Shown here in pieces: positions 28,942 through 49,108 of a stretch of 64,000 nucleotides of DNA; position 1 is the first letter of the stretch; each line of letters opens with the position of its first letter. Both the position numbers and the translations under genes were made by a program. This DNA comes from Georgenia muralis (GTDB taxonomy: Bacteria > Actinomycetota > Actinomycetes > Actinomycetales > Actinomycetaceae): positions 3,230,776-3,294,775 of the forward strand of contig NZ_RKRA01000001.1 in the NCBI RefSeq assembly GCF_003814705.1, given 5' to 3'. The notes under the pieces were generated by a model that saw nothing but the letters and a program-made list of their open reading frames with translations, did no database searches and was not told the origin of the DNA.

Positions 28942-29412
28942 CTACGAGCCGAGCGCGGCGCAGGCGCGGACGGTGGCGAGGGCGGCCTGAGCCGCCTCCG
29001 CACCCTTGTCCTCGCGTGAGTCGGGCAGGCCGGCGCGGTCGAGGGCCTGGGCCTCGTCGTCGGTCGTGAGCACGCCGAAGCCGACCGGCACGCCGGTGCG
29101 CACCGAGACCTCCGTCAGCCCGACCGTGGCGGCCTGGCAGACGTAGTCGAAGTGGGGTGTCTCGCCGCGGATGACGACGCCGAGGGCGACCACGGCGTCC
29201 GCGCCGGCGGCGACGGCCCGCGACGCCGCGACGGGCAGCTCGAAGGAACCGGGCACCCGCACGAGGGTCGTCGTGGCCCCCGCCTCCACCAGCGCCCGCA
29301 GGGCACCGGCGACGAGGCCGTCCATGACGGTCGTGTGCCAGCTGGCCGCGACCACGGTGACCCGCAGTCCCCGGCCGTCGGTGGTGATCGTCGGTGCTCC
29401 TGCTCCGCTCAT
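28942..29412 (-). CDS. ribH: 6,7-dimethyl-8-ribityllumazine synthase
   Basis: A 156-residue enzyme of riboflavin synthesis that condenses the ribB and ribD products. The family stretches are [48 protein letters not shown] and [18 protein letters not shown], with the last Arg-containing helix present. ATG at 29412 overlaps the ribB stop. It is the last gene of the riboswitch-controlled operon ribD-ribE-ribB-ribH. Confidence 0.95.
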
Positions 29413-30194
29413 GCGTGGGTCTCCTCGTCGGTGTGGTGGGTGTCGGTGTGGGGGTCGTCGGGGGTGCGGGTGCCGGTGTGGTCGTGGCCGGGCCGGCGGC
29501 GAGGACGGCGGGTCTCCTCGGCGCGCGCCCCGGACACGTGGGCGACGACGTCGGCGATCGTCAGCAGGACCAGGTCTTCCCGGTCGGCGAGGGCGGCGGC
29601 CTGGCGCCGCCGGGTCATGGTGCCGTCGTCCTCGACGAGCTCGGCGATCGCCGCCACCGGTGCGACGCCCGCGAGCCGGCACAGGTCGACGGCGGCCTCG
29701 GTGTGCCCGGGCCGGGCCAGGACGCCGCCGGGGACGGCACGCAGCGGGAGGACGTGGCCCGGACGGATGAGGTCGCCGGGCCCGGCAGCGGTGTCGGCGA
29801 GGGTGCGCAGGGTCGCCGCGCGGTCGGCCGCGGAGATGCCGGTGCCCACGCCGCGTGCGGCGTCGACGCTCACCGTGTAGGCCGTGCCTCGCGGGTCCTG
29901 GGACCGGGCGACCATGAGCGGCAGCTCGAGGTCGTCCGCCCGCTCGGCCGGGAGCGGGGCGCAGAGGTAGCCGGAGGTGTGACGCACCGTCCAGCCCACC
30001 CAGTGCTCGGTCGCGTGGGCGGCGGCCAGGACGACGTCGACCTCGTCCTCGCGGTCCTCGCCGTCCGCCACGAGGACGGGTCGGCCGGCGCGGAGGGCGG
30101 CCAGCGCCCGGGCGACGAGGTCGTCGGCGTCGGCGGGTCCGCCATGGACTGCGGGGTCCGCGGCCGGGCGCCCGGCCGTCGCGGGGGCGCTCAC
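29409..30194 (-). CDS. ribB: 3,4-dihydroxy-2-butanone 4-phosphate synthase (RibB only)
   Basis: A 261-residue enzyme making the four-carbon precursor of riboflavin from ribulose 5-phosphate. The metal and substrate motif [12 protein letters not shown], the later [25 protein letters not shown] and the ELVEDDGTM stretch are intact. In most actinobacteria this domain is fused to GTP cyclohydrolase II (RibA). Here the protein ends after the RibB domain with a short Thr/His/Asp/Arg-rich tail, so the RibA half is missing. GTG at 30194 overlaps the ribE stop. Confidence 0.93.
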
Positions 30195-30790
30195 GAGGCG
30201 CCCCCGACGCCGAGCAGCCGCTCGACGTACTTGGCCAGCACGTCGACCTCGAGGTTGACCGGGTCGCCCACGGCCAGGGTGCCGAGCGTGGTCGCACCGA
30301 GGGTGGTGGGGATGAGGGCGACACCGAAGGAGTCCTCCCGGGCGGCCGTCACCGTGAGGGAGACGCCCTCGACGGTGACCGACCCCTTCTCGGCGACGTA
30401 CCGCGCCAGCGGTGCGGGTACCGAGACGTCGACCTCGTCCCACCGCGGGCCGGGACGGCGGGCGTGGACCGTCCCCACGCCGTCGACGTGACCCTGCACG
30501 AGGTGCCCGCCGAGGCGGCCGCCCGCGGCGAGGGCCCGCTCGAGGTTCACGCCGCGGCCGGGCGTGAGGGTCCCGAGAGTGGTGCGCCGCAGCGTCTCGG
30601 GCATGACGTCGGCGGTGAAGCCGGCACCGTCCAGGGCGGTCACGGTCAGGCACACGCCTGCGACCGCGACCGAGTCGCCCTCGCGCAGGTCGGTCGTCAC
30701 GGTGGTGGCCGCGACCGACAGCACGGCGGCGCCGTCGGCGTCGGTCCGCCCGCGGACGGTCCCGACCTCCTCGATGAGTCCGGTGAACAT
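30191..30790 (-). CDS. ribE: Riboflavin synthase, alpha type
   Basis: A 199-residue enzyme with the two lumazine-binding repeats: [12 protein letters not shown] and [16 protein letters not shown] in the first, [13 protein letters not shown] and [12 protein letters not shown] in the second. The intact MFTGLIEE start fixes the ATG at 30790. It dismutates the lumazine to riboflavin. It overlaps both ribD upstream and ribB downstream by a few bases, supporting a translationally coupled operon. Confidence 0.95.
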
Positions 30791-31881
30791 CAGTGCTTCC
30801 TCTCGGTTCGGCGGGCGACGACGAGGACGTCCTCGCCCAGGCGGTGGGTCTCGTGGGTGTGCCAGCGCTGCGCCTGCGCCAGCGTGGCGATGTCGAGGTC
30901 GGGCACCGCGGCGGTGCCGGCGCCGAGCAGCACGGGCGCGAGGTAGGCGTGCAGCTCGTCCACCAGCCCCGCGCGCAGCGCGGCGCCGAGGAGGGTCGGG
31001 CCGCCCTCGAGGAGGACCCGGCGGGCGCCGTCCTTCCCGAGCTCGTCCAGGACGGCGGCGAGGTCGTGGGTGGCGGCGTGGCGCCACGTCCCGGGTCCGC
31101 GGCGCACCGCGGCGTCCGGAGGCACGGCGCGCCGGCCGACGACCACGCGCACCGGCTGGCGCGCGTGGTGCGAGCCGTCCGGGCGGCGGGCGGTGAGCGC
31201 GGGGTCGTCCGTCAGCACCGTCCCGGTGCCGGCGACGATCGCGTCGACCGCGGTGCGGACGGTGTGGGCGTGGGCCCGGGCGGCGGCACCCGTGATCCAG
31301 CGGGAGGTGCCGTCGGCGGCGGCCACGCGTCCGTCGAGGCTCGTGGCGGTCTTGCCGGTGACCCACGGCCGGCCGAGCGTCCACGGTGCCGCCCACGGCT
31401 CGAGGAGCCGGTCCGCCCGGTCGAGGACGTGCGGCGAGGCGCCGGAACGGCTGCCGGTGCGGACCTCGACGCCGTGGCGCGCCAGCCAGGCGGCGCCGCC
31501 GGCCGCGACGGGGTTGGGGTCGGCGCACGCGTACACGACCCGCGCGACACCCGCGTCCCGCAGCGCCACCGAGCAGGGGGGCGTGCGCCCGCTGTGGTGG
31601 CACGGCTCGAGGGTGACGACTGCCGTCGCGCCCCTCAGCCGGGCCCGGTCGGCCGACGCGAGGGCTGCTGCCTCGGCGTGCGGGGTGCCCGCACCGTGGT
31701 GCCACCCCTCCCCCACGACCGCGCCCGCGGGGTCGACGAGCACGCACCCGACCTGGGGGTTGGGTCCGTCCGCGGGACCGCGGGCGGCCAGGACGAGGGC
31801 GCGCTCCAGCGCCCGGTCGACGGCGCGGCCGTCAGGCGCCCGGTCGATGGCGCGTCCCGCGTCGGCGGTGAGGTCCTGCAC
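30790..31881 (-). CDS. ribD: Bifunctional diaminohydroxyphosphoribosylaminopyrimidine deaminase/reductase
   Basis: A 363-residue two-domain enzyme of riboflavin synthesis. Residues 25-150 are the deaminase: HAEAAAL zinc motif and PCHHSGRTPPC. Residues 160-350 are the reductase: VTGKTATSLDGRVAAADGTSRWITG and LLEGGPTLLGAAL. GTG at 31881 is chosen because GGAAGGAG precedes it by about 5 bases and the upstream frame has no homology. It heads the operon. The site lies 80 bases below an FMN riboswitch. Confidence 0.94.
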   Translation of the reverse strand: MQDLTADAGRAIDRAPDGRAVDRALERALVLAARGPADGPNPQVGCVLVDPAGAVVGEGWHHGAGTPHAEAAALASADRARLRGATAVVTLEPCHHSGRTPPCSVALRDAGVARVVYACADPNPVAAGGAAWLARHGVEVRTGSRSGASPHVLDRADRLLEPWAAPWTLGRPWVTGKTATSLDGRVAAADGTSRWITGAAARAHAHTVRTAVDAIVAGTGTVLTDDPALTARRPDGSHHARQPVRVVVGRRAVPPDAAVRRGPGTWRHAATHDLAAVLDELGKDGARRVLLEGGPTLLGAALRAGLVDELHAYLAPVLLGAGTAAVPDLDIATLAQAQRWHTHETHRLGEDVLVVARRTERKH

Positions 31882-31907: not shown

Positions 31908-31960
31908 AGATGTGCGGACGCGAACGCAACGCCGCCGGGCGCAGGCGCGCACGACGACGT

Positions 31961-32091
31961 CACGTGCTGCCTCCCATCCGGACTCTCACCGTCGGTCCCG
32001 GAGTTCCACCAGGTCAACCGCCCACCAGGAGGTGGTCGGGTCGCGGACTGTCACCGCCGGCTCGGAATTTCACCGACCCCGGAGCACGTGC
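31961..32091 (-). promoter_or_regulatory. FMN riboswitch (RFN element) of the ribD operon
   Basis: On the minus strand the aptamer reads, in order, GGGGTCGGTGAAATTCC, CCGGCGGTGACAGTCCGCGA, the variable arm, TTGACCTGGTGGAACTCC, and GACCGACGGTGAGAGTCCGG followed by ATGGGAGG. This is the consensus RFN order. P1 is formed by GCACGTGC at both ends. FMN binding should reduce ribD expression. Confidence 0.95.
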
Positions 32092-34526: not shown

Positions 34527-35600
34527 TCAGGCGGGCGCCGGCCCGCCGAGGATGTCCGCGAGCCGGTAGCCCACCGGCTCCTCGAGCTGGTCGTAGGTGC
34601 ACGAGGCCGGGTCCCGGTCGGTGCGCCAGCGGCGGAACTGGGCGGTGTGGCGGAACCGGTCGCCCTCCATGTGGTCGTAGGCCACCTCGACGACGAGCTC
34701 GGGTCGCAACGGCACGAACGACAGGTCCTTGGTGGCGTTCCACCGGCTGACGGCGCCGGGCATGCGCCGGTCCGGGTGCGCGGACTGGTCCGCCCAGGAC
34801 CCCCACGGGTGCCCGGCGAGGTCGACCTCGCGGTAGGGCGCGAGCTCGTCGAGCAGACTCTTGCGCCGGGCCATGGGGAAGGACGCCGACACGCCGACGT
34901 GCTGGAGCCGCCCGTCGTCGGTGTACAGCCCCAGGAGCAACGAGCCGACGACGTCGCCGCTCTTGTGCCACCGGAACCCGGCGACGACACAGTCGGCGGT
35001 GCGCAGGTGCTTGATCTTGAACATCGTCCGCTTGTTGGGCTCGTACGGCCGCTCGGGCGGCTTGACGACGACGCCGTCGAGCCCGGCACCCTCGAACCGG
35101 GTGAACCACTCCTGGGCCTGGGCGAGGTCCGCCGTCGCCGGGGTGACGAACACCGGTGCCCGGGCGTCGGCGAGGGCGCCGACGAGGTGCTCGCGGCGCT
35201 CGCGGAAGGGCCGGCGCATGAGGTCCTCGTCGTCCACGGCGAGCAGGTCGAACGCGACGAAGGACGCGGGGGTCTGCTCGGCCAGCAGGCGCACCCGGCT
35301 GTCCGCCGGGTGGATGCGCTGCTGGAGCGCGTCGAAGTCGAGCCGGTCGTCCGCCACGAGGACGATCTCACCGTCGATGACGCACCGCTCGGGCGTGTTC
35401 GCCCGGATGGCCTCGACCAGCTCGGGGAAGTACCGGGTCATCGGCTTCTCGTTCCGGCTGCCGAGCACGACCTCGTCGCCGTCGCGGAAGACGATCGTGC
35501 GGAAGCCGTCCCACTTGGGCTCGGCGTGGCCGAGGTCGGGGATCTCCGGCACGGACTTGGCCAGCATCGGGGCGACGGGCGGCATGACGGGCAGGTCCAT
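34527..35600 (-). CDS. ligC: ATP-dependent DNA ligase, LigC type
   Basis: A 357-residue ATP-dependent ligase. The nucleophile K29 is in AEPKWDGFRT, followed by motifs EKP..RYFPELVEAI, VIDGEIVLV, FVAFDLLAV, DGVVVKPPERPYEPNKR and MFKIKHLR. A C-terminal OB-fold ends with VAYDHMEGDRFRHTAQFRRWR. It would reseal nicks in repair, probably with the primase-polymerase encoded at 36414. ATG at 35600 is at the usual distance from the lysine; the frame is open upstream. Confidence 0.9.
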   Translation of the reverse strand: MDLPVMPPVAPMLAKSVPEIPDLGHAEPKWDGFRTIVFRDGDEVVLGSRNEKPMTRYFPELVEAIRANTPERCVIDGEIVLVADDRLDFDALQQRIHPADSRVRLLAEQTPASFVAFDLLAVDDEDLMRRPFRERREHLVGALADARAPVFVTPATADLAQAQEWFTRFEGAGLDGVVVKPPERPYEPNKRTMFKIKHLRTADCVVAGFRWHKSGDVVGSLLLGLYTDDGRLQHVGVSASFPMARRKSLLDELAPYREVDLAGHPWGSWADQSAHPDRRMPGAVSRWNATKDLSFVPLRPELVVEVAYDHMEGDRFRHTAQFRRWRTDRDPASCTYDQLEEPVGYRLADILGGPAPA

Positions 35601-35763
35601 GGTGTGATCCTGCCCGCTCGGGGCGGGATGCGCCCCCGGCACCACGACGGATCTCGTCGGCGCGGCGCCGGCCGGTGGCAGGAACAGGTCGGCCCCGCGC
35701 CGGTGGCGAAACCGGGCGGGGCCTGGCGCTCACCTGTGGAAGAGGATCGCGTTGCGCACCAGC

Positions 35764-36249
35764 CTACCGCGCGGCGCCCTTCAGGGTGCCGGTGACCGCT
35801 CCCGCGGGGTCGACCAGGAGGCAGACGACCTCGCGGTCGTCGAAGCCGTTCCACGACTCCTCGGTCGGGAAGTACGTGCCGAAGTCGAGGGTGGAGTCCT
35901 CGTAGGCCGCGCCCACGAACTCCGCGAACGCGCCGTAGCAGCCCTCGTCCGCCGAGCCCATCACCGCCTCGTCGCCGGGGAACTCGCCGTCGGCGAGGTC
36001 GAACACGGCGTACACCTCGGAGTCGTGCGACTCGGCGCAGGGCACCACCTCGACCTGCGAGACCTCGACGACCTCCTCGGAGGCCTCGGCGCCGCCCTCG
36101 CTCACGCAGTCGCCGAGCGCCACGGAGAACGCGTCCACCGTGCCCGCGGTGGCGACCGCACCGGTGTCGTCACGCACCGCGGTCGGGCCGCAACCGGTGA
36201 GCCCGACGAGGAGGAGGAGGGGAAGGACGATCGACGCAGCACGCTTCAT
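35764..36249 (-). CDS. Septum-formation family lipoprotein
   Basis: A 161-residue lipoprotein. A Lys/Arg start, a hydrophobic signal and the lipobox LVGLTGC put the lipidated Cys at about residue 20. The mature part has the septum-formation domain pattern: DAFSVALGDCV, VEVVPCAESHDSEVYAVFDLADGEFPG, GCYGAFAEFVG and CLLVDPAG, with four cysteines in two pairs. The function is unknown. ATG at 36249. It lies between the ligase and polymerase genes. Confidence 0.75.
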   Translation of the reverse strand: MKRAASIVLPLLLLVGLTGCGPTAVRDDTGAVATAGTVDAFSVALGDCVSEGGAEASEEVVEVSQVEVVPCAESHDSEVYAVFDLADGEFPGDEAVMGSADEGCYGAFAEFVGAAYEDSTLDFGTYFPTEESWNGFDDREVVCLLVDPAGAVTGTLKGAAR

Positions 36250-36413
36250 CACGGTCGGGCTCTCTGGGAAACGCGGCGGAGGGACGGTCGTCCCCCTCGT
36301 TCCGGCGTGGCCGAGCCTAGGGGCACCGCCAGGCGGGCAAGGCGGGATCGCGCGCCTGCGTGCCATGTGAGGTGCGTCACACGAGGATGGACCTCGCGAG
36401 GGGCGCGACCGGG

Positions 36414-37463
36414 TCACTCCGTGCGGCGCTCGCGCGAGGGCTGGACCCGTTTGGGCTCCCCCGGCATCTTGGGGTACTCCGGTGGGTAGGGCATGTCCCC
36501 CAGCTCCGCCTCGTCCCGGGCGTACCACTCGAGCAGCGGGGTGAGGTCGTGGGCGACGTCGTCGATGCCGGCGTGGAGGTCGCCCCGCTCGGCGAAGCGC
36601 GCGGGCATGGTCAGGACCGTGAGGTCGCGCGGGTCGACGTCGACCAGCTCGTCCCACGCCACCGGGGCGGAGACCGGCGCGTGCGCCAGCGGACGGATGC
36701 TGTACGCGCTGGCGATCGTGCGGTCGCGGGCGTTCTGGTTGTAGTCGACGAAGATCGTCTCGCCGCGCTCCTCCTTCCACCACCTCGTGGTGACCTTCCC
36801 GGGCATGCGGCGCTCGAGCTCGCGGCCGAGCGCGATGGCCGCGTGACGCACGTCGGTGAAGGTCCACCGGGGGGCGATGCGCACGTAGATGTGCACGCCC
36901 CGGTTGCCGGAGGTCTTCGGGTAGCCCGTGATCCCCAGCTCCTCGAGCAGCTCCCGGGCGACGCCGGCCACGGCGACCGCGTCGGAGAAGTCGGTGCCGG
37001 GCTGGGGATCGAGGTCGATCCGGAGCTCGTCGGGGTGGTCGACGTCCGCGCGGCGCACCGGCCAGGGGTGGAAGGTGATCGTCCCCAGGTTCACGGCCCA
37101 GGCCACCGCGGCGAGCTCGGTGGGGCACAGCTCGTCGGCCGTGCGGCCGCTGGGGAAGGCGATCGTCGCCGTCTCGATCCAGTCCGGCACGCCCTTGGTG
37201 GGGACCCGCTTCTGGAAGAAGGCGTCGCCGTGCGGGTCAGCGCGCGTGGCCATCTTGACGTTGTCGCGGACGCCGTGCGGCCACCGCTCGAGGGTGACGG
37301 GGCGCTCGCCGAGGGCCCGCATGATCCCCTCACCGACGCTCAGGTAGTACTGGACGAGCTGGAGCTTGGTGATGCCCGGTCCGGCGAAGTACACGCGGTC
37401 GGGGTTGGTCACGCGGACGGCGCGGCCGTCGACGTCGAGCTCGATCGCCGGGGTGGCTGCCAT
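36414..37463 (-). CDS. LigD-type primase-polymerase (PolDom/Prim-Pol)
   Basis: A 349-residue stand-alone polymerase domain of bacterial non-homologous end joining, of the archaeo-eukaryotic primase fold. The start VTNPDRVYFAGPGITKLQLVQYY, the two catalytic Asp in RIDLDPQPG, the SGNRGVHIYVRI stretch and DYNQNARDRTIASAYSIRP match the family. It resembles the PolD1/Rv3730c group, which is found beside ligC. It could fill gaps or add ribonucleotides at breaks. Neither a nuclease domain nor ku is in the window. ATG at 37463. Confidence 0.9.
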   Translation of the reverse strand: MAATPAIELDVDGRAVRVTNPDRVYFAGPGITKLQLVQYYLSVGEGIMRALGERPVTLERWPHGVRDNVKMATRADPHGDAFFQKRVPTKGVPDWIETATIAFPSGRTADELCPTELAAVAWAVNLGTITFHPWPVRRADVDHPDELRIDLDPQPGTDFSDAVAVAGVARELLEELGITGYPKTSGNRGVHIYVRIAPRWTFTDVRHAAIALGRELERRMPGKVTTRWWKEERGETIFVDYNQNARDRTIASAYSIRPLAHAPVSAPVAWDELVDVDPRDLTVLTMPARFAERGDLHAGIDDVAHDLTPLLEWYARDEAELGDMPYPPEYPKMPGEPKRVQPSRERRTE

Positions 37464-38741: not shown

Positions 38742-38839
38742 GAACCCGTCCGGTGAGTGAGCAGCTTGCGGCGCGGGTCAGCGGGTCCGGCGCTCCTGGC
38801 TCATCCCGGAAGGTCCTGACTGACCCCGCAGGCCCTGAC

Positions 38840-38857
38840 TCACACCGGGGGGTGTGA
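38840..38857. terminator. Hairpin between convergent genes
   Basis: TCACACC and GGTGTGA pair around a GGGG loop in the 176-base gap after DUF3866 and before the PH-domain gene, which read toward each other. No T-run, so this is a structure-only call. Confidence 0.4.
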
Positions 38858-38917
38858 CCGGGCGGGAGCCGCGGAGCGGCGGACGTGCCGAGAGGCCGCG
38901 GACGTGCCGCCCGGCGT

Positions 38918-39364
38918 TCAGTCCCGTGGCTCGTGCAGCGCGATGAGCGTGGCGAGGCGCCGCGCCTCGCTGTGTCCGCGCTCGCCGTCGGCCCGCTGGA
39001 TCGCCATGACGGCGAGGGTGGAGCCGTCGGTAAGGTCGAGCTGCGCCCACGGGGTGCCGTCGCCGAAGCCGAGGGAGACGATCTCCGCCCACCCCACGTC
39101 GCGGGAGTGGATGAGGTTGCGCACGTGCAGGCCGTCCTCGTCCGGGCGTGCGAGCACCCCGCCCTGGCGCCACAGGAACCAGCAGATGAGGCCGGCGAGG
39201 CCGACCGTGCCCGCCGCGTCCGCCGGGCCGTACGCGATGCCCGCCGCCGGCAGGAACAGCACGACGGCCACCGCGCCGAGCACGGTCAGGACGCCCAGCA
39301 CCCACGAGACGGCCCGCGCCGCCCGGGGCCGGAACGGCCGGTGGAGCTCGGCGCGGTCAGCCAT
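38918..39364 (-). CDS. PH-domain membrane protein
   Basis: A 148-residue protein. Residues 20-70 hold two membrane helices (VSWVLGVLTVLGAVAVVLFLPAAG and TVGLAGLICWFLW), followed by a bacterial PH (bPH-type) domain: GLHVRNLIHSRDVGWAEIVSLGFGDGTPWAQLDL. The function is unknown; it follows hisG in many actinobacteria. ATG at 39364 overlaps the hisG stop by 1 base. Confidence 0.75.
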   Translation of the reverse strand: MADRAELHRPFRPRAARAVSWVLGVLTVLGAVAVVLFLPAAGIAYGPADAAGTVGLAGLICWFLWRQGGVLARPDEDGLHVRNLIHSRDVGWAEIVSLGFGDGTPWAQLDLTDGSTLAVMAIQRADGERGHSEARRLATLIALHEPRD

Positions 39365-40212
39365 CAGATCCGGCAGGCGTGGATGGAGGTGGTGAGGATG
39401 GCGCGGGCGCCGACGTCGTAGAGGGAGTCCATGACCCGGTTGGTGTCCTCGCGGCGGACCATCGCCCGCACCGCCACCCACTCGCCGTTGTGCAGCGGCG
39501 AGACGGTCGGGGACTCCAGCCCCGGGGTGATCGCGACCGCGGCCTCGACGTCGGTGACCCGCACGTCGTAGTCCATGAGGACGTACTGGCGGGCGACGAG
39601 GACGCCCTGGAGCCGACGGTCGAGCACGCTGAGCCCGGCGGGCACCTCGGCGCCGCCGTCGTGTCGGATGAGGACCGCCTCCGAGCGCAGGATCGGCTCG
39701 CCGAAGGTGGCCAGGCCCGCTGCGCGCAGGGTGGAGCCGGTCTCGACGACGTCCGCGACGAGGTCGGCGATGCCGAGCTGGACCGAGGACTCCACCGCGC
39801 CGTCGAGGTGGACGACCTCCGCGTCGACGCCGTGGGCGGCGAGGTAGTCGCCCACGAGCACGTCGTAGCTGGTCGCGACCCGCTTGCCGGCGACCTGCTC
39901 GAGGGAGGTGATCTCCCCGGCGGGCGCGGCGAAGCGGAACGTGGACCGGGCGAAGCCGAGGGGGCGGTGCTCGACCGCCGCGGCACCGGAGTCGAGCAGC
40001 AGGTCGCGGCCGGTGATCCCGACGTCGACCGTGCCCGAGCCGACGTACACCGCGATGTCGCGGGGGCGCAGGAAGAAGAACTCGACGTCGTTGCCCGGGT
40101 CGGCCAGGACGAGCTCGCGCGAGTCACGACGCTGGCGGTAGCCCGCCTCGGAGAGGATCTCGGCGGCGGGGGCGGACAGGGAGCCCTTGTTGGGCACGGC
40201 GATGCGCAGCAC
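39364..40212 (-). CDS. hisG: ATP phosphoribosyltransferase, long form
   Basis: A 282-residue enzyme catalysing the first step of histidine synthesis from ATP and PRPP. The family blocks are visible: [45 protein letters not shown], and [20 protein letters not shown], which binds the phosphoribosyl group. The C-terminal third is the regulatory ACT-like domain of the long form, ending [18 protein letters not shown] at 40212. It is the partner of hisE 35 bases upstream. Confidence 0.94.
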
Positions 40213-40247
40213 TTTCGCTCCGTTGGTTGGGTTGGTGGTCGGCCGCC

Positions 40248-40511
40248 TCAGAGGTGGCGGTAGACGTCCTGCAGGGTCAGGCCCCGCGCGATCATCATCA
40301 CCTGGAGGTGGTACAGGAGCTGGCTGATCTCCTCGGCCGTGGCCTCGGCGCCCTCGTGCTCGGCGGCCATCCACACCTCGGCCGCCTCCTCGACGACCTT
40401 CTTGCCGATGGTGTGGATCCCGGCGTCGAGCTCGGCCACGGTCCCCGAGCCCTCGGGACGGGTGGCGGCCTTGTGCTCGAGCTCGGCGAAGAGCTCCTCG
40501 AACGACTTCAC
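40248..40511 (-). CDS. hisE: Phosphoribosyl-ATP diphosphatase
   Basis: An 87-residue enzyme doing the second step of histidine synthesis. The MazG-like motif is visible: [17 protein letters not shown] and [28 protein letters not shown] at 40511 lies only 10 bases after the end of the binding-protein gene, so hisE-hisG-PH are probably in the same transcript as the FMN-riboswitch-controlled transporter. Confidence 0.93.
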
Positions 40512-40521
40512 GGGCGCCAGC

Positions 40522-41562
40522 CTAGTTGCTCGCGGCGGGCAGGAACCGGTCGGTCCACGCCTGGGCGGGGTCGACGTCGGCCTCGAGCAGACCCGCGTCG
40601 GTCAGGAGGGTGACCATCTCCTCCCACACACCGGCCTCGTGGGCGCCCGGCTCGCCGGCGCCCTCGTAGAGCGGGACGGTGGCCTCGAGCGTGGCCAGGG
40701 CCGCCTGGCGCTGCTCGGGCCGGTCGAGGTCGGGGACCTGGGCGGCGGAGATCTCCACCGCGGCCTCGGGGTCCGCCGCGACGTCGGCGACCCCGCGCAG
40801 GCTCGCCTCGACGAACGCGGCGACGTCCTCGCCCCGCTCCTCGGCCGTCGCCTCGAGGGTGCCCAGCGAGATGCCGACGAGGGGCACCTCACCCTCGGCG
40901 ATCTCGATGGTGCGCACGGGCGTGCCCGCCTCGGCGAAGCGCACGGCGTCGTTGTTGACGAAGCCCATGACGGCGTCGACGTGCCCGCCGGTCAGGGCGG
41001 CCTGCTGGGTGAACCCGATGTGCTCGACCGTGACGTCGTCCTCGGTCAGCCCGGCATCCTGCAGGAGCGCGACGAGGCCGAAGTAGGTCTCCCCGAACGG
41101 TCCCGGGATGCCGACGGTGCGGCCGGCGAGGTCGGCGGCGGAGCGGATGTCGGAGTCCTCCGGGACGATGAGCGCGACGGGGTACTGCTGGTACAGGGTG
41201 GCGACGGACACCAGCGGCACCCCCTGGGAGCGCGCCTGGAGCATCTCGTCCCCGCCGGCGACGACGACGTCCTCCTCCTCGGCGCTGATCGCGGTGAACA
41301 GGCCCTCGCTCTGGCCGTGGTGGCGCAGGGTCACGTCCAGGCCGGCCTCCTCGTAGTACCCCTTCTCGGCCGCGACGTAGAAGGGCGCGAACTGGATGTC
41401 GGGGACGTAGGTGAGCCCGAGGGTCAGGGGGGCGGGTTCGGCGGCCGTCGTGGCGGGGTCGGTCGCGGCCGGGGCCGTCTCCGGCTCCGCCGCGCAGGCG
41501 GCGAGGGTCAGGGCGGTGGCGGTGGCGGTGGCGGCCAGGAGGGCGAGCGGGCGGCGGGACAT
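40522..41562 (-). CDS. ribY: RibY-like flavin ABC transporter substrate-binding lipoprotein
   Basis: A 346-residue lipoprotein of the NMT1/THI5-like binding-protein family. The lipobox is LTLAAC near residue 22. The core [45 protein letters not shown] is typical of ThiY/RibY proteins. ATG at 41562. RibXY riboflavin transporters of this type are known; the riboswitch upstream of the neighbouring permease supports flavin as the ligand, but binding is not shown by the sequence. The gap to the permease gene is 162 bases. Confidence 0.8.
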
Positions 41563-41609
41563 GGGGCTCCTCGGGTGCGGCGGTCCGGGGCGCGGACGCC
41601 GGACGGTGT

Positions 41610-41650
41610 GCTGGGTGGTGGTCGGGTGGTCGGGTGGTCGTGTGGTCGGG
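41610..41650. repeat. Low-complexity GGTCGGGTG repeat between the transporter genes
   Basis: A run of short GGTGGTCGGGTGGTC-type units lies in the 162-base gap between the permease and binding-protein genes. It is not in any gene, and no open frame crosses it with recognisable content. Confidence 0.55.
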
Positions 41651-41724
41651 TGGACGTCGGTTCGTGGAAGTGGTGGTGGTCGGGTGGCGCCTGGTCGCGG
41701 CGGCGGGTGGCGGTCCCGGCGGGA

Positions 41725-42702
41725 TCAGTCGGCCGTGCGGCGCTCGAGCGCACCGAGGAGGCCGTAGATGGTCATGGCCAGGGCGCACAGGACGATGAGG
41801 GCGGAGAAGATGCCGGTCGTGTCGGCGGCGAGGCCGCGGGCGGACAGCAGCATCCCCAGGCCGTGCCCGCCCATGACGAACTCCCCCACGACCGCGCCGG
41901 TCACCGACAGGGTGAAGCCGTTGCGCACGCCGGTGAGGATCGAGGGCCAGGCCAGGGGCAGCTCGACGTGGCGCAGGAGCGACCACGAGCCCGCCCCGTC
42001 CAGTCGCGCGGCAGCGACGACGTCGGGGTCGAGGGTGCGCAGGCCGAGGACGGTGGCGAGGAGGATCGGGAAGAACACCAGCAGCGCGCAGAGGACCACG
42101 ATCGGCAGGAGACCGTAGCCGAGCCACAGGACGAGGAGCGGGGCCAGCGCCACCGCGGGGATCGCCTGGGACGCGGCGATGTACGGCTCGAGCGCCGCCG
42201 AGGCGTGCCGGCTGCGGAAGACGAGGTAGCCCAGCGGCAGCGCGACCGCCGCCCCCAGCGCGCTGCCGAGAACGGCCTCGACGAGGGTGGGCAGGACGTA
42301 CCGCGCCAGCCCACCGGTGGTGAGGTCCTCCGCCAGGCGCTCGGCGACGGCCGTGGGGGCGGGCAGGAAGACGGCGGGGACGAGCCCCGTGCGCGCGACG
42401 GTCTCCCACACGACGACGAGCACCGCGCCGAGGACGAGCGCCGGCAGGATCCGGCGGCGACGGGCGGCCGGCCGGGCCGCGCGCGTCGCGGCCGGTCCCG
42501 TGGCGGCTGTGCCGGAGGTTGCCGCGCCGGCCGTGACCGTGCCGGCGGTGGTCGTGGCGCCGGTCGCGGCGCCGCGGGCGCGCGGGCGGGCGGACCGCAC
42601 GGCGGCCGACGACCGGTCGTGGGCCGGTGCGCCGGTCGGCAGGGTCGCCGGCGGGTCCTGCGACGGTGTCGCGGCGGCGGGTGCGCCGAGGTCGGTGCTC
42701 AC
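41725..42702 (-). CDS. ribX: RibX-like flavin ABC transporter permease
   Basis: A 325-residue inner-membrane permease. After an 85-residue low-complexity Ala/Thr/Gly leader come about six membrane helices, with the EAA-type loop (AARLDGAGSWSLLRHVELPLAWPSIL) that contacts the ATPase. GTG at 42702 has GGAGG 5 bases upstream; the frame extends into the riboswitch but that part is not translated. Only one permease and no ATPase are encoded in this operon, so an ATPase must come from elsewhere, possibly 45743. Confidence 0.8.
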   Translation of the reverse strand: MSTDLGAPAAATPSQDPPATLPTGAPAHDRSSAAVRSARPRARGAATGATTTAGTVTAGAATSGTAATGPAATRAARPAARRRRILPALVLGAVLVVVWETVARTGLVPAVFLPAPTAVAERLAEDLTTGGLARYVLPTLVEAVLGSALGAAVALPLGYLVFRSRHASAALEPYIAASQAIPAVALAPLLVLWLGYGLLPIVVLCALLVFFPILLATVLGLRTLDPDVVAAARLDGAGSWSLLRHVELPLAWPSILTGVRNGFTLSVTGAVVGEFVMGGHGLGMLLSARGLAADTTGIFSALIVLCALAMTIYGLLGALERRTAD

Positions 42703-42711
42703 GAAGTCCTC

Positions 42712-42732
42712 CCGGTCCTGGACGTGGACCGG
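42712..42732 (-). promoter_or_regulatory. Hairpin next to the ribX ribosome-binding site
   Basis: CCGGTCC and GGACCGG pair around a 7-base loop and end right before the GGAGG of ribX. Its first half shares the sequence CCGGTCCACGTC with the hairpin at the ribD ribosome-binding site, suggesting a related riboswitch expression platform. Confidence 0.5.
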
Positions 42733-42772
42733 GGCCGGACGGGTGACGGCGTGTGCCGTCGCCAGCCCTCGA

Positions 42773-42791
42773 CGTGCGCCGAGGGCGCACG
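42773..42791 (-). promoter_or_regulatory. Hairpin between FMN aptamer and ribX leader
   Basis: CGTGCGCC and GGCGCACG with a three-base loop lie just downstream of the aptamer. This could be the terminator arm of the switch or a spacer; no T-run is present. Confidence 0.4.
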
Positions 42792-42793
42792 CC

Positions 42794-42924
42794 GCGTGCA
42801 TCCTCCCATCCGGACTTTCACCGTCGGTCCTGGAGTTCCACCAGGTCAACCGGGAACCCGAGGGTGCACGGCTCGCGGACTGTCACCGCCGGTTCGGACT
42901 CTCACCGACCCCGGAGCACGTTGC
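42794..42924 (-). promoter_or_regulatory. FMN riboswitch (RFN element) of the transporter operon
   Basis: The minus strand carries the full consensus order: GGGGTCGGTGAGAGTCC, CCGGCGGTGACAGTCCGCGA, a variable arm, TTGACCTGGTGGAACTCC, GACCGACGGTGAAAGTCCGG and ATGGGAGG. It is about 90 percent alike to the switch at 31961 in these blocks. It lies upstream of ribX-ribY-hisE-hisG. Confidence 0.95.
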
Positions 42925-43117
42925 TTGCGCGTCGATGATATCCCTTCCGCCCCACCGGCGGGGTGTCGGCCCCGTGAGACCCCGCGCACGTAGACGTGGC
43001 GCACGTGAGCCGTGGCCAACGTGAGACGCCGCGGACCGGGGTCCCGCCCGGCCGCGCCGTCGGGCATGCTGGGCGCGGTGCGGGCTCCTGCGCACCTGCA
43101 CCGACCGGAGGACACCT
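42925..43117. other. Divergent promoter region between the two transporter operons
   Basis: A 193-base gap. GATATCAT at 42935-42942 on the minus strand is a candidate -10 for the riboswitch transcript. Four ACGT cores lie at 42984-43024, including CACGTGAG and AACGTGAG, a possible operator for the plus-strand operon. I see no gene. Confidence 0.4.
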
Positions 43118-44101
43118 ATGCGACCACTCCCCCTCGCGCCGGCGGCCGCAACGGTCGTGCTCGCGCTCGCGGCCTGTGCCGGCGGGGGCCAGGACGGTGA
43201 CCCGGCCACCACGGCCGCCGACGGTGACCCATCAGCGGTTCTCACAGCGATCACCGTGGGGGTGCTGCCCATCGTCGACACCGCCCCCATCTGGCTGGGG
43301 GTCGAGGAGGGGATCTTCGCCGAGCACGGCCTCGACGTCGAGCTCGCCGTCGCGCAGGGCGGTGCCGCCGTCGTGCCGGCCGTCGTGGCCGGGGACTACC
43401 AGTTCGGGTTCTCCAACGTCACCTCCCTCCTGCTCGCCGAGTCCCGGGGTCTGCCCCTGCGCCTCGTCGCGCCGGGCAGCTTCACCACGGGGGACACCGA
43501 CGCCGACATCGCGGCCGTGGTGACCCAGCCGGCCAGCGGCATCACCTCCCCCGCCGACCTCGCCGGCCGGACCGTCGCGGTGAACACCCTGGGCAACATC
43601 GGTGAGTCCACGGTCCGCAAGGTCGTCGAGGACGCCGGGGGCGACCCGGCGGCCGTGCGGTTCGTCGAGCTGGGGTTCCCCGACATGCCCGCCGCCGTCG
43701 CCGGTGGCCAGGTCGACGCCGCGTGGGTGAACGAGCCGTTCCTCACCATCACGAAGGACCAGGGCGCGCGCGTCGTGAGCCACACCTTCGCGGCGGTCGA
43801 CCCCGAGATGCTCATCGCCGCCTACTTCACCTCAGCGGAATACGCCGCGTCCGACCCCGGCACGGTGGAGGCGTTCACCGCCGCGATGGCCGAGGCGTCC
43901 GCCCGCGCGGCCGAGGACCCGGACGCGGCGCGGGAGATCCTCGGCACCTACACCGAGATCGGCGACGACGTCATCGCGCGCATGGTGGTGCCCCGCTACG
44001 CCGGGGAGATCCCCGAGGACTCGGTCCGGCTCCTCGCGGACCTGGCGCTGCGCTACGGCCTCGTCGACGACGCGATCGACGTCAGCGCCCTGCTGCGGTG
44101 A
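43118..44101 (+). CDS. NMT1-type ABC transporter substrate-binding lipoprotein
   Basis: A 327-residue lipoprotein of the ThiY/SsuA-like family. The lipobox LALAAC is near residue 19, followed by ITVGVLPIVDTAPIWLGVEEGIFAEHGLDVELAVAQGG, and later DLAGRTVAVNTLGNIGESTVRKVV. ATG at 43118 has GGAGGA 4 bases upstream. It is divergent from ribX and only distantly like RibY. Ligand candidates are a flavin, a thiamin precursor or an aromatic sulphonate; the neighbouring FMN riboswitch favours a flavin-related compound (inference). Confidence 0.82.
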   Translation: MRPLPLAPAAATVVLALAACAGGGQDGDPATTAADGDPSAVLTAITVGVLPIVDTAPIWLGVEEGIFAEHGLDVELAVAQGGAAVVPAVVAGDYQFGFSNVTSLLLAESRGLPLRLVAPGSFTTGDTDADIAAVVTQPASGITSPADLAGRTVAVNTLGNIGESTVRKVVEDAGGDPAAVRFVELGFPDMPAAVAGGQVDAAWVNEPFLTITKDQGARVVSHTFAAVDPEMLIAAYFTSAEYAASDPGTVEAFTAAMAEASARAAEDPDAAREILGTYTEIGDDVIARMVVPRYAGEIPEDSVRLLADLALRYGLVDDAIDVSALLR

Positions 44102-44883
44102 CACCGTTGGGGCCCGTGCACCGGACGGCGCTGGGACTGGCGGGGGTCCTCGCCGTCGTCGCCCTGCTCGAGATCCTTCCCCGGACCGGCGCGGCGGACC
44201 GGCGGTTCCTGCCTCCCTCCACCGAGATCGCCGCCGCGCTCGCGGACCGGGCGGCGACGCCGGCGTTCTGGTCCGCGCTGGGGCAGACCCTGACCACGTG
44301 GTCGATCGGCCTGGCGGCGGCCACGATCGCCGGGGTCGTGCTCGGTGCGGTGATCGGCTCGGCCGGGTGGGTGCGCGCGGCCACGTCGTCGACGATCGAG
44401 TTCCTGCGTCCCATCCCGTCGGTGGCCCTCATCCCCCTGGTCGTCCTCCTCCACGGCACCGGTGTGGCCGCGACGCTGCTCCTCGTGGTCTACGCCGCCT
44501 TCTGGCCGGTGCTGCTGCAGGTCCTCGCCGGCGTCGCCGACGTCGACCCCCTCACACGCGAGACCGCTCGGGTGTACCGCTACCGACGGCTCACCGTGGC
44601 CACCCACGTGGTGGGGCCCAGCGCCCTGCCGTACGTCATCACGGGGTTCCGCCTCGCTGCCTCCGTGGCCCTGGTCCTCACGCTCACCGGTGAGCTCGTG
44701 ATCGGCACACCGGGCCTCGGCCGGCTGCTCGCCGTCGCCCAGCAGTCCGGCGCCGTAGCGCCGATGTACGCCCTGGTGGTCGTCACCGGGCTGCTGGGTG
44801 TGGCGGTCAACCTCGGCGTGCGCGCGCTCGAGCGGCGGGTCCTGCGGTGGCACCCGTCGGTCCGTCGGGAGGTGCCGGCGTGA
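44098..44883 (+). CDS. ABC transporter permease
   Basis: A 261-residue membrane permease with about six helices. The coupling loop is EAA-like (ETARVYRYRRLTVATHVVGPSALPYVITGFRLA), and GELVIGTPGLGRLLAVAQQSGA is typical of the TauC/SsuC family. GTG at 44098 overlaps the binding-protein stop. A second permease follows directly, so the channel is probably a heterodimer. Confidence 0.85.
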   Translation: MTPLGPVHRTALGLAGVLAVVALLEILPRTGAADRRFLPPSTEIAAALADRAATPAFWSALGQTLTTWSIGLAAATIAGVVLGAVIGSAGWVRAATSSTIEFLRPIPSVALIPLVVLLHGTGVAATLLLVVYAAFWPVLLQVLAGVADVDPLTRETARVYRYRRLTVATHVVGPSALPYVITGFRLAASVALVLTLTGELVIGTPGLGRLLAVAQQSGAVAPMYALVVVTGLLGVAVNLGVRALERRVLRWHPSVRREVPA

Positions 44884-45743
44884 CCGCGACCGGGGGCCGG
44901 GCTGCCGGCACCGGCCGTGGCCGGGCCGGGGGCGGCGCGCCGCGCGACCGGTCGCGAGAGGTCGGCGCGGGCGTCCTGCGGCGGGTGGGGGCTGCCGTCG
45001 CCCTGCCCGCCGTCCTCCTCGCCGCATGGTGGTTCGCCTCGGCGGGGAGCGAGTCGTTCTACTTCCCGCCGCTGTCGGCGATCGTCGACGCGTTCGGCCC
45101 CGCGTGGTTCGAGGGCAGGCTCGTCACCGACGCCGCCCCGAGCCTCGCCCGGCTGCTCGCCGGCTACGCGGTGGCGCTCGTCGTCGGCGTCGCGGCGGGG
45201 GTCGCGATCGGGTCCTCCCCCGTGCTGCGGGCCCTGACCGAGCCGGCCCTGGAGTTCTTCCGGGCGATCCCCCCGCCGGTGATGATCCCCGTGACGATGC
45301 TCTTCCTGGGCATCTTCACCCCCATGAAGGTGTTCGTCATCGCCACCGGGGCGCTGTGGCCGATCCTGCTCAACACGGTCGAGGGGGTGCGCGGTGTCGA
45401 CGAGATCCTCCGCGACACCGCCGCGGTGTACCGGCTCCGTCGGCGCACGGCGCTGCGCACCCTCGTGCTGCGGGCCGCCTCCCCCCAGATCATGACCGGC
45501 GCCCGGCAGGGGCTCTCGCTCGCCATCATCCTCATGGTCATCAGCGAGATGTTCGCCGCCAACAACGGCCTCGGGTTCACCGTCGTGCAGTTCCAGCGCT
45601 CGTTCGCCGTCCCCGAGATGTGGACCGGCATCATCGTGCTCGGGGTGCTCGGCGTGGTGCTGTCCGCGCTGCTGCGGGTGGTCGAGCGGCGCGTGCTCGC
45701 CTGGCACCGCGGCCTGCGACGGACCGCCCGGGAGAGCCGCTGA
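44880..45743 (+). CDS. ABC transporter permease, second subunit
   Basis: A 287-residue permease. After an Arg/Gly-rich leader there are about six helices. The coupling loop is RDTAAVYRLRRRTALRTLVLRAASPQIMTGARQGLS, and MVISEMFAANNGLGFTVVQFQR resembles SsuC/TauC proteins. GTG at 44880 overlaps the preceding stop. It is similar to, but clearly distinct from, the permease at 44098, so a recent duplication is unlikely. Confidence 0.85.
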   Translation: MTATGGRAAGTGRGRAGGGAPRDRSREVGAGVLRRVGAAVALPAVLLAAWWFASAGSESFYFPPLSAIVDAFGPAWFEGRLVTDAAPSLARLLAGYAVALVVGVAAGVAIGSSPVLRALTEPALEFFRAIPPPVMIPVTMLFLGIFTPMKVFVIATGALWPILLNTVEGVRGVDEILRDTAAVYRLRRRTALRTLVLRAASPQIMTGARQGLSLAIILMVISEMFAANNGLGFTVVQFQRSFAVPEMWTGIIVLGVLGVVLSALLRVVERRVLAWHRGLRRTARESR

Positions 45744-46564
45744 TGCCCGCCGTGCCCGACCGCCGGCCGCCCACCGGCACGCCGATGCTGCGGGTCGACG
45801 CCCTGCACAAGGTCTACGGGACCGCGGACGGCGGGGTGGAGGCCATCCGCGACCTCACCTTCGAGGTTCGTGCCGGCGAGATGGTCTGCGTCGTCGGGCC
45901 CTCCGGCGCCGGCAAGACCACGCTCCTGCGGTGCCTCTCGGGCCTGCTCGAACCGACGTCGGGCGAGGTGGTGCTCGAGGGGCGGCGGGTGCACGGGCCA
46001 CCACCGGGCATGGCCATGGTCTTCCAGGACTATGCGCGCTCGCTGTTCCCGTGGCACACCGTCGAGCGCAACGTCGAGCTGCCGCTGCGGGAGAAGGGGG
46101 TGGGCCGGGCCGAGCGGCGGCGACTGGTCGGGCAGTCGCTGGCGGCCGTGGGTCTCGCCGATGTGCCCACCGCCTACCCCTGGCAGCTGAGCGGCGGCAT
46201 GCAGCAGCGGGTGGCGATCGCGCGGGCGGTGGCCTACGAGCCGCACATCCTGCTCATGGATGAGCCCTTCGCCGCCGTCGACGCCCAGACACGCGCCGAC
46301 CTCGAGGACCTCGTCCGCGAGCTCTGGCACCGTCTGGGCATCACCCTGGTCCTCGTCACCCACGACATCGACGAGGCCGTCTACCTCGGCCAGCGCGTGC
46401 TCGTCCTGTCCGGCCGGCCCACCGTCGTGCTGGCCGACGTCGCCGTCGACCTGCCCGACCGGCGCGACCAGCGCACCACCCGCAGCTCGGAGGAGTTCGC
46501 CCGGCTCCGCGCCCGCGTCTACGACCTCGTCCAGCAGGCCCGCCGAGGTCCGACGAACTCGTAG
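45743..46564 (+). CDS. ABC transporter ATP-binding protein
   Basis: A 273-residue ATPase. Walker A is GPSGAGKTTLL, the Q-loop is MVFQDYARSLFPWHTV, the signature is LSGGMQQRVAIARA, Walker B is ILLMDEPFAAVD and the switch His is in LVTHDIDEAVYL. It is of the SsuB/TauB/ThiZ type. ATG at 45743 overlaps the permease stop (TGATG). It is the only transporter ATPase near the RibXY-like operon and could serve both (inference). Confidence 0.9.
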   Translation: MPAVPDRRPPTGTPMLRVDALHKVYGTADGGVEAIRDLTFEVRAGEMVCVVGPSGAGKTTLLRCLSGLLEPTSGEVVLEGRRVHGPPPGMAMVFQDYARSLFPWHTVERNVELPLREKGVGRAERRRLVGQSLAAVGLADVPTAYPWQLSGGMQQRVAIARAVAYEPHILLMDEPFAAVDAQTRADLEDLVRELWHRLGITLVLVTHDIDEAVYLGQRVLVLSGRPTVVLADVAVDLPDRRDQRTTRSSEEFARLRARVYDLVQQARRGPTNS

Positions 46565-48439: not shown

Positions 48440-49108
48440 TCACCGGTGGTGGTGCGCCCCGGCGGCGAGGTCGCGCAGGGCGTCGACCTCGGCGGCCGCG
48501 TCCTCGGCGCGGTAGACGGCGCTGCCGGCGACGAAGACGTTCGCCCCGGCGTCGGCGGCCCGCTCGATCGTCTCACGGGAGATCCCGCCGTCGACCTGCA
48601 CCCACACGTCGAGACCGGCCTCGGTCACGGCCTTGCGGGTCCGGGCGATCTTCGGCAGCGTCGCATCGATGAAGCTCTGCCCGCCGAAGCCCGGTTCGAC
48701 GGTCATCACGAGGATCATGTCGAACTCGGGCAGGAGGTCCAGGTACGGCTCGACGGCGGTCGCCGGGCGCAGCGCGAGGCCGGCCCGCGCACCCAGGCCG
48801 CGCAGGTCCCGGGCGAGCTTGACCGGGGCCGCCGCGGCCTCCGCGTGGAAGGTCACCGAGGCGCACCCGGCCTCGGCGTAGGCCGGGGCCCACCGGTCGG
48901 GGTCGTCGATCATGAGGTGTGCGTCGACCGGGACGGGGCTGACCTCGAGGATCCGCTCCACCACCGGCAGCCCGAGGCTGAGGTTGGGCACGAAGTGGTT
49001 GTCCATGACGTCGACGTGGGCGAAGTCGGCGCCGGCGATCTTCGCGAGCTCCCCGCGGAGGTCGGAGAAGTCCGAGTTGAGGATGCTGGGCGAGATGACG
49101 ATGCTCAC
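48440..49108 (-). CDS. rpe: Ribulose-phosphate 3-epimerase
   Basis: A 222-residue TIM-barrel enzyme interconverting ribulose 5-phosphate and xylulose 5-phosphate. The conserved [55 protein letters not shown] and VDGGISRET blocks are present, with the two catalytic Asp. Its product pool also feeds RibB. GTG at 49108. It is at the end of the rsmB-fmt-priA-metK block, where riboflavin genes follow in many actinobacteria but not here. Confidence 0.94.

Follow-up and report, generated by a model that had tools for sequence, protein, structure and literature searches.

The 64-kb stretch of Georgenia muralis DNA analysed here (the window, whose coordinates are used throughout) harbours a minus-strand locus in which a flavin mononucleotide (FMN) riboswitch (RFN element; switch 1) is followed by genes for an ATP-binding cassette (ABC) permease (ribX) and an NMT1/THI5-type substrate-binding protein (ribY), and then, 10 bases beyond the ribY stop codon (40512-40521), by hisE, hisG and a gene encoding a PH-domain protein. 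An earlier sequence-only reading had described all these elements, the spacing and the common strand included, and every part of that description was confirmed in place. The locus is most probably an old flavin slot into which ribXY has been swapped, with hisEG being largely a bystander that has a promoter of its own. It represents a clear case in which the position and the neighbours of a riboswitch are fixed while the genes it regulates switch from vitamin synthesis to import, the setting being a family where 111 of the 151 sampled genomes show no lumazine synthase (ribH). FMN-riboswitch RibXY systems of Actinobacteria (PMC4418817) and leaderless hisEG (PMC3896937) are already known from published reports. 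In the open literature, with subscription journals mostly not covered, no description was found of the importer-hisEG arrangement, nor of a slot with exchangeable flavin cassettes and an overlap of stop codon and -10 box.

According to this reading, an FMN riboswitch in a slot framed by rpe on one side and hisE-hisG-PH on the other would have driven riboflavin biosynthesis (rib) genes in the ancestor. In the lineage that unites the window's family (f1) with a neighbouring family (f13), the genes behind the switch would have become ribX-ribY, a probable riboflavin importer without an ATPase of its own; some members keep the biosynthetic operon at another site, behind a second switch, and ribH is missing in most of those sampled. 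Binding of FMN would lower the expression of ribXY, probably by masking the ribX Shine-Dalgarno sequence; RibXY would bring in riboflavin using an ATPase from elsewhere, possibly that of the operon at 43118-46564; and hisE-hisG would be transcribed leaderless from a promoter whose -10 box, TAGGCT, overlaps the ribY stop codon.

The slot between rpe and hisE

A search with hisG gave matches in 109 of 151 family genomes, 113 of 119 order genomes and 58 of 60 class genomes, three sets that overlap slightly. Loci (L-numbers; G-numbers denote genomes) were hand-picked to span a variety of genera or families and to come from long contigs. Those fetched around hisG number 40 from the family, 40 from the order and 20 from the class, and a further 20 family loci are centred on riboswitches; family f12 and 12 class genomes with hisG identity below 40% were left out. 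Covariance-model matches to the riboswitch were preferred, where available, over a text-pattern RFN finder, which gave some false matches, many of them on the opposite strand, and missed some elements (L048).

The common frame in relatives is rpe - RFN - cassette - hisE - hisG - PH, the cassette being most often made up of rib biosynthesis genes, sometimes of ribM alone and, in one clade, of ribXY. Upstream of hisE, the closest known genes are rib genes in 16 of the 20 class loci (L184 with ribH only, at a contig end; L187 with a 402-base gap); they are preceded by rpe in 12 of these 16, and a text-pattern RFN match lies on their rpe side in 11. The other four class loci show no rib genes there: L188, in which rpe directly precedes hisE, L197, L200 and L203. 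Among the 40 order loci, ribH lies within 500 bases of hisE in 14, which come from families f4, f5, f8, f9, f14, f15, f17 and f20 (L066-L068, L070, L071, L078, L080, L081, L090, L091, L093, L095, L097, L102), and two more have a rib operon separated from hisE by about 3 kb or more (L069, L092). A ribM-type gene is found in nine (L072, L073, L075, L083-L085, L094, L096, L098), five being assigned to the NMN_transporter family by Pfam and four by tblastn. Four loci carry ribX-ribY (L086-L089), and these are all four loci fetched from f13. Finally, rpe directly precedes hisE in seven (L063-L065, L079, L082, L099, L101), and four have other genes, with no assigned identity (L074, L076, L077, L100).

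Of the 40 hisG loci from the window's own family, 32 carry ribX-ribY ahead of hisEG in the same orientation, 31 of them within 500 bases of hisE and L035 at about 1.5 kb. The two units converge in L025-L027, a layout seen likewise, among the matches listed, in Actinomyces gerencseriae (L117) and A. haliotis (L119), so that f1 may be the Actinomyces family, and five loci have no ribXY nearby (L030, L036, L038, L041, L042). Seven family loci have hisEG with no riboswitch adjacent (L025-L027, L030, L038, L041, L042). Conversely, RFN-ribXY is kept in nine riboswitch-centred loci whose genomes show no hisG match (L043-L046, L048-L052).

The comparison of rpe-rib-hisEG synteny across relatives, proposed in the sequence-only reading, thus found rib genes at the site in both class and order loci. 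Because these 16 and 14 relatives keep rib genes next to hisE, the view that the importer occupies an ancestral rib slot, as had been suggested, is supported at the level of gene order. A quick HisE-HisG-Rpe tree backs this view further. It covers 73 loci (33 from f1, 4 from f13 and 36 from the rest of the order), with eight f1 loci and all class loci left out, and on it f1 and f13 together form one side of a branch with a Shimodaira-Hasegawa-like approximate likelihood ratio test (SH-aLRT) support of 99.7. Separating ribXY from the rest requires five changes on this tree, owing to losses within f1. Since rib genes occupy the slot in class loci, the simplest history is a single exchange of rib for ribXY at the base of f1 and f13.

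The hisE promoter box and the 10-base gap

The hisE gene of the window is preceded by TAGGCT with a 7-base spacer to the GTG start codon, which is the arrangement of a leaderless-type promoter, and no Shine-Dalgarno-like string is found just upstream. With start codons placed by tblastn and set to the nearest ATG or GTG, a TANNNT box ending 5-8 bases before hisE was detected in 77 of the 81 family and order loci, and in 89 of 100 when the class loci were added and a spacer of 5-9 bases was allowed. Shuffled hisE upstream regions gave 1.8 such boxes per 81 on average and 8 at most (500 shuffles). The same test applied to other genes yielded 2/78 for hisG, 2/43 for PH, 1/28 for ribX, 1/34 for ribY, 1/12 for ribD, 0/33 for ribC, 0/15 for ribBA, 0/34 for ribH, 1/9 for SBP2 and 7/38 for DUF3866; given the last of these values, the test is not perfectly specific. 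The box is present whichever cassette stands upstream: ribXY (36/36), rib genes (25/30), ribM (9/9), rpe (8/12) or other genes (11/13). The hisE genes that have no box, that of L042 included, number 11; a Shine-Dalgarno-like string accompanies 6 of these 11 and none of the 89 with a box, and a box without a Shine-Dalgarno sequence is the pattern that a leaderless promoter would predict.

The ribY stop codon TAG is at the same time the first half of the predicted -10 box, and wherever the gap measures 9-11 bases, in all 14 such ribXY loci and all five such rib loci, the box begins with the stop codon of the gene upstream. Hence the 10-base gap can be accounted for by an upstream reading frame that ends on the TAG supplied by the his promoter; it fits the promoter spacing and by itself is no sign of an operon. 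Across the 36 ribXY loci the gaps range from -4 to 200 bases, and tight ribY-hisE spacing is therefore not conserved.

A comparable promoter has been reported for Corynebacterium glutamicum, whose hisEG is leaderless with a -10 box seven bases upstream, the authors citing their own unpublished RNA-Seq data (PMC3896937). The two cases are alike in having a TANNNT-type box at 7 ± 1 bases from the start codon, with no 5′ untranslated region in C. glutamicum and a prediction to that effect here; they differ in that the C. glutamicum promoter has a TGn extension where the window has AAC, and flavin genes beside hisEG are not mentioned in the examined portions of that paper. In Mycobacterium tuberculosis, TANNNT is reported as the main -10 element, a conserved -35 not having been found (PMC3898074). 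For high-GC actinobacteria this calls for caution, as a gap of 10 bases need not mean an operon and can instead mark a leaderless promoter in which one sequence serves both as -10 box and as upstream stop codon; it also suggests a sequence-only rule for detecting promoters hidden inside apparent operons.

Two class loci are built otherwise. In L190 and L201, hisE overlaps ribH by 4 bases and has no promoter box, and in L201 it has a Shine-Dalgarno-like string. Both are candidates for a true rib-his operon, and L190 has an RFN-like match upstream.

Importer identity and flavin control of histidine synthesis

The ribXY unit of the window consists of an FMN riboswitch followed by a permease gene and a gene for an NMT1-type binding protein, with no ATPase gene in the operon, and shares all these traits with the RibXY importers reported for Chloroflexi and Actinobacteria (PMC4418817, PMC3766115), from which it differs in its position in the rpe-hisE slot, abutting hisE. 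The main text of PMC4418817 contains neither "hisE" nor "histidine", and that of PMC3766115 neither "hisE" nor "hisG". Compared with the actinobacterial rpe-RFN-rib-hisE-hisG-PH locus, the landmarks, the position of the switch and, in most cases, the hisE box are the same, whereas the slot holds biosynthesis genes there and an importer here.

RibXY is probably a riboflavin importer, judging by its riboswitch and its relatives. By sequence, the best solved relative of RibY is the N-formyl-aminomethylpyrimidine binding protein 3ix1 (2e-20), and because this relative binds a thiamin pyrimidine, flavin as the substrate of RibY rests on precisely those two lines. Membership of the NMT1/THI5 family and the 3ix1 match could be taken to mean that RibXY takes up a thiamin pyrimidine or some other ligand, the placement of the riboswitch being incidental. 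We regard this as very improbable, given that an FMN riboswitch precedes ribXY in every f1 and f13 locus whose fetched stretch extends far enough to show it (L009 meets a contig end), that 111 of the 151 family genomes have a switch and no ribH match, and that the RibXY of Chloroflexus aurantiacus is reported to complement a riboflavin auxotroph of Escherichia coli (PMC4418817). As for the mechanism, folding of the leader of switch 1 as a single sequence gives a hairpin that runs into the ribX Shine-Dalgarno sequence, which fits masking of that sequence. Translational control appears likelier since a scan of 38800-43150, including the ribY-hisE junction, found no terminator-like site.

Whether flavin status could control the first steps of histidine synthesis, as the sequence-only reading had proposed, depends on how hisEG is transcribed. 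A search for a promoter or terminator between the binding-protein gene and hisE, also envisaged there, had a divided outcome: a predicted, conserved -10 box was found, a terminator-like site was not. With no such site, read-through from the riboswitch transcript into hisEG may occur, and together with the common strand and the 10-base gap this would speak for one transcript running from ribX to the PH-domain gene. Yet the conserved leaderless-type box stands at hisE whatever lies upstream, including all 36 ribXY loci, the gap equals the promoter spacing, and the ribY stop codon is part of the box itself. RibXY adjoins hisEG in most f1 loci, but the gaps vary as given above (about 1.5 kb in L035), hisEG converges with RFN-ribXY in L025-L027 and both Actinomyces species, and the nine loci from hisG-less genomes retain RFN-ribXY. 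A single flavin-controlled transcript is accordingly improbable, and the proposed control of the first histidine steps did not find support, the box being conserved irrespective of the cassette and hisEG occurring in relatives without a riboswitch.

Mixed control, in which the hisE promoter sets a base level and read-through from the riboswitch adds a flavin-sensitive share, draws on the same lack of a terminator-like site and on the 10-base gap, which could permit translational coupling. It seems rather doubtful, though a better candidate than the single transcript, since hisE has no Shine-Dalgarno-like string usable inside a longer mRNA and the spacing is not conserved across the clade. A broader version is unlikely to hold in full: it would make the rpe-FMN riboswitch-hisE interval an exchangeable flavin slot with three cassettes (synthesis, RibM and RibXY), where upstream genes often end on the TAG of the -10 box and read-through adds a flavin-responsive share of hisEG expression. 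In sum, hisEG appears to keep its own, predicted promoter, and flavin control of histidine synthesis beyond a side effect is unlikely from the arrangement of the sequence.

Several points nevertheless weigh against a swapped-in importer beside an independently transcribed hisEG. Besides the missing terminator-like site and the kinship of RibY to 3ix1, the 11 hisE genes without a box and the DUF3866 positives must be borne in mind; a promoter scan of 38800-43150 found no sigma-70-type site, and no good -35 element is seen by eye at hisE. Furthermore, the tree, a quick one with order-level rows and no class outgroup, places f13 inside f1, and the rib genes may have been replaced in one step or may have been relocated beforehand.

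The biosynthetic operon and neighbouring genes

That biosynthetic genes have been replaced by an importer holds for the slot and not for the genome, for ribD-ribC-ribB-ribH persists on the hisG strand, 7.3 kb further downstream, and has a riboswitch of its own (switch 2; Table 1). Riboflavin biosynthesis is therefore not lost, and its loss in G. muralis was rejected as an explanation, a separate copy of GTP cyclohydrolase II being present as well. This gene has one genomic match, about 1.5 Mb away and outside the riboswitch operon, and Pfam matched no GTP cyclohydrolase II domain in the ribB of the window. The genus has ribH in eight of its nine genomes (exception, G076), and of the seven apart from the window's own, five keep the GTP cyclohydrolase II half at the rib locus.

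Table 1. Genes and regulatory elements of the window
Feature	Position	Strand	Evidence
FMN riboswitch (RFN element), switch 1, before ribXY	42793..42922	-	RF00050, 92.1 bits, full model 1-138
ribX-like ABC permease	41725..42702	-	PF00528 (BPD_transp_1) 4.3e-32; GTG start, GGAGGAC just 5′
ribY-like NMT1/THI5-type substrate-binding protein	40522..41562	-	PF09084 6.5e-47
Predicted hisE promoter	40512..40524	-	-10 TAGGCT 40524-40519, 7-base spacer to hisE GTG
hisE, phosphoribosyl-ATP pyrophosphatase	40248..40511	-	PF01503 (PRA-PH); NF001610 equivalog over cut-off
hisG, ATP phosphoribosyltransferase with C-terminal domain	39364..40212	-	PF01634 (HisG), PF08029 (HisG_C), TIGR00070
PH-domain protein gene	38918..39364	-	PF10756 (bPH_6)
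rpe, upstream landmark of the putative ancestral rib locus	48440..49108	-	PF00834; TIGR01163 over cut-off
Divergent ABC operon (NMT1-type binding protein, two permeases, ATPase)	43118..46564	+	between rpe and switch 1
FMN riboswitch, switch 2, before biosynthetic operon	31960..32091	-	RF00050, 90.0 bits, model 1-138
ribD	30790..31881	-	PF01872, PF00383; TIGR00326 over cut-off
ribC (riboflavin synthase)	30191..30790	-	PF00677, two stretches
ribB, 3,4-dihydroxy-2-butanone 4-phosphate (DHBP) synthase only	29409..30194	-	PF00926 sole match; TIGR00506 over cut-off; translation
ribH (lumazine synthase)	28942..29412	-	PF00885; single genome match

Both switches exceed the RF00050 gathering score of 66.2 as full aptamers, and the 4.14-Mb, one-contig genome contains no further RF00050 match (E ≤ 0.001). 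Across the genus, identity is 90-100% among copies of switch 1, 88-99% among copies of switch 2 and 83-89% in switch-1/switch-2 pairs; switch 1 thus groups clearly, switch 2 slightly. These identities do not support a recent duplication or gene conversion, and the two switches do not appear to be recent copies of each other.

In the family as a whole, a riboswitch was found in 150 of the 151 genomes and ribH in 40; all 111 genomes without a ribH match carry an FMN riboswitch. Two switches are present in 27 genomes, 26 of which have ribH (a manual count from two tables). Genome G072 has no ribH match; at its locus L058, ribC stands as the sole rib match behind a second FMN riboswitch, and this pair is likely a remnant of a rib operon.

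The rpe gene, the single match in the whole genome, lies upstream of switch 1, past the plus-strand ABC operon at 43118-46564. This operon, on which an Rfam search found no riboswitch, could possibly supply the ATPase missing from RibXY. Genes matching it occupy the equivalent place in L003, L006, L008, L010 and L020, the ATPase being visible in L020 only, as the stretches of the other four stop short. Genes for a LigD polymerase and an ATP-dependent ligase are located at 34527-37463 on the minus strand, between DUF3866 and switch 2; L004, L005 and L007 lack them there, and L008-L010 have the ligase gene in inverted orientation.

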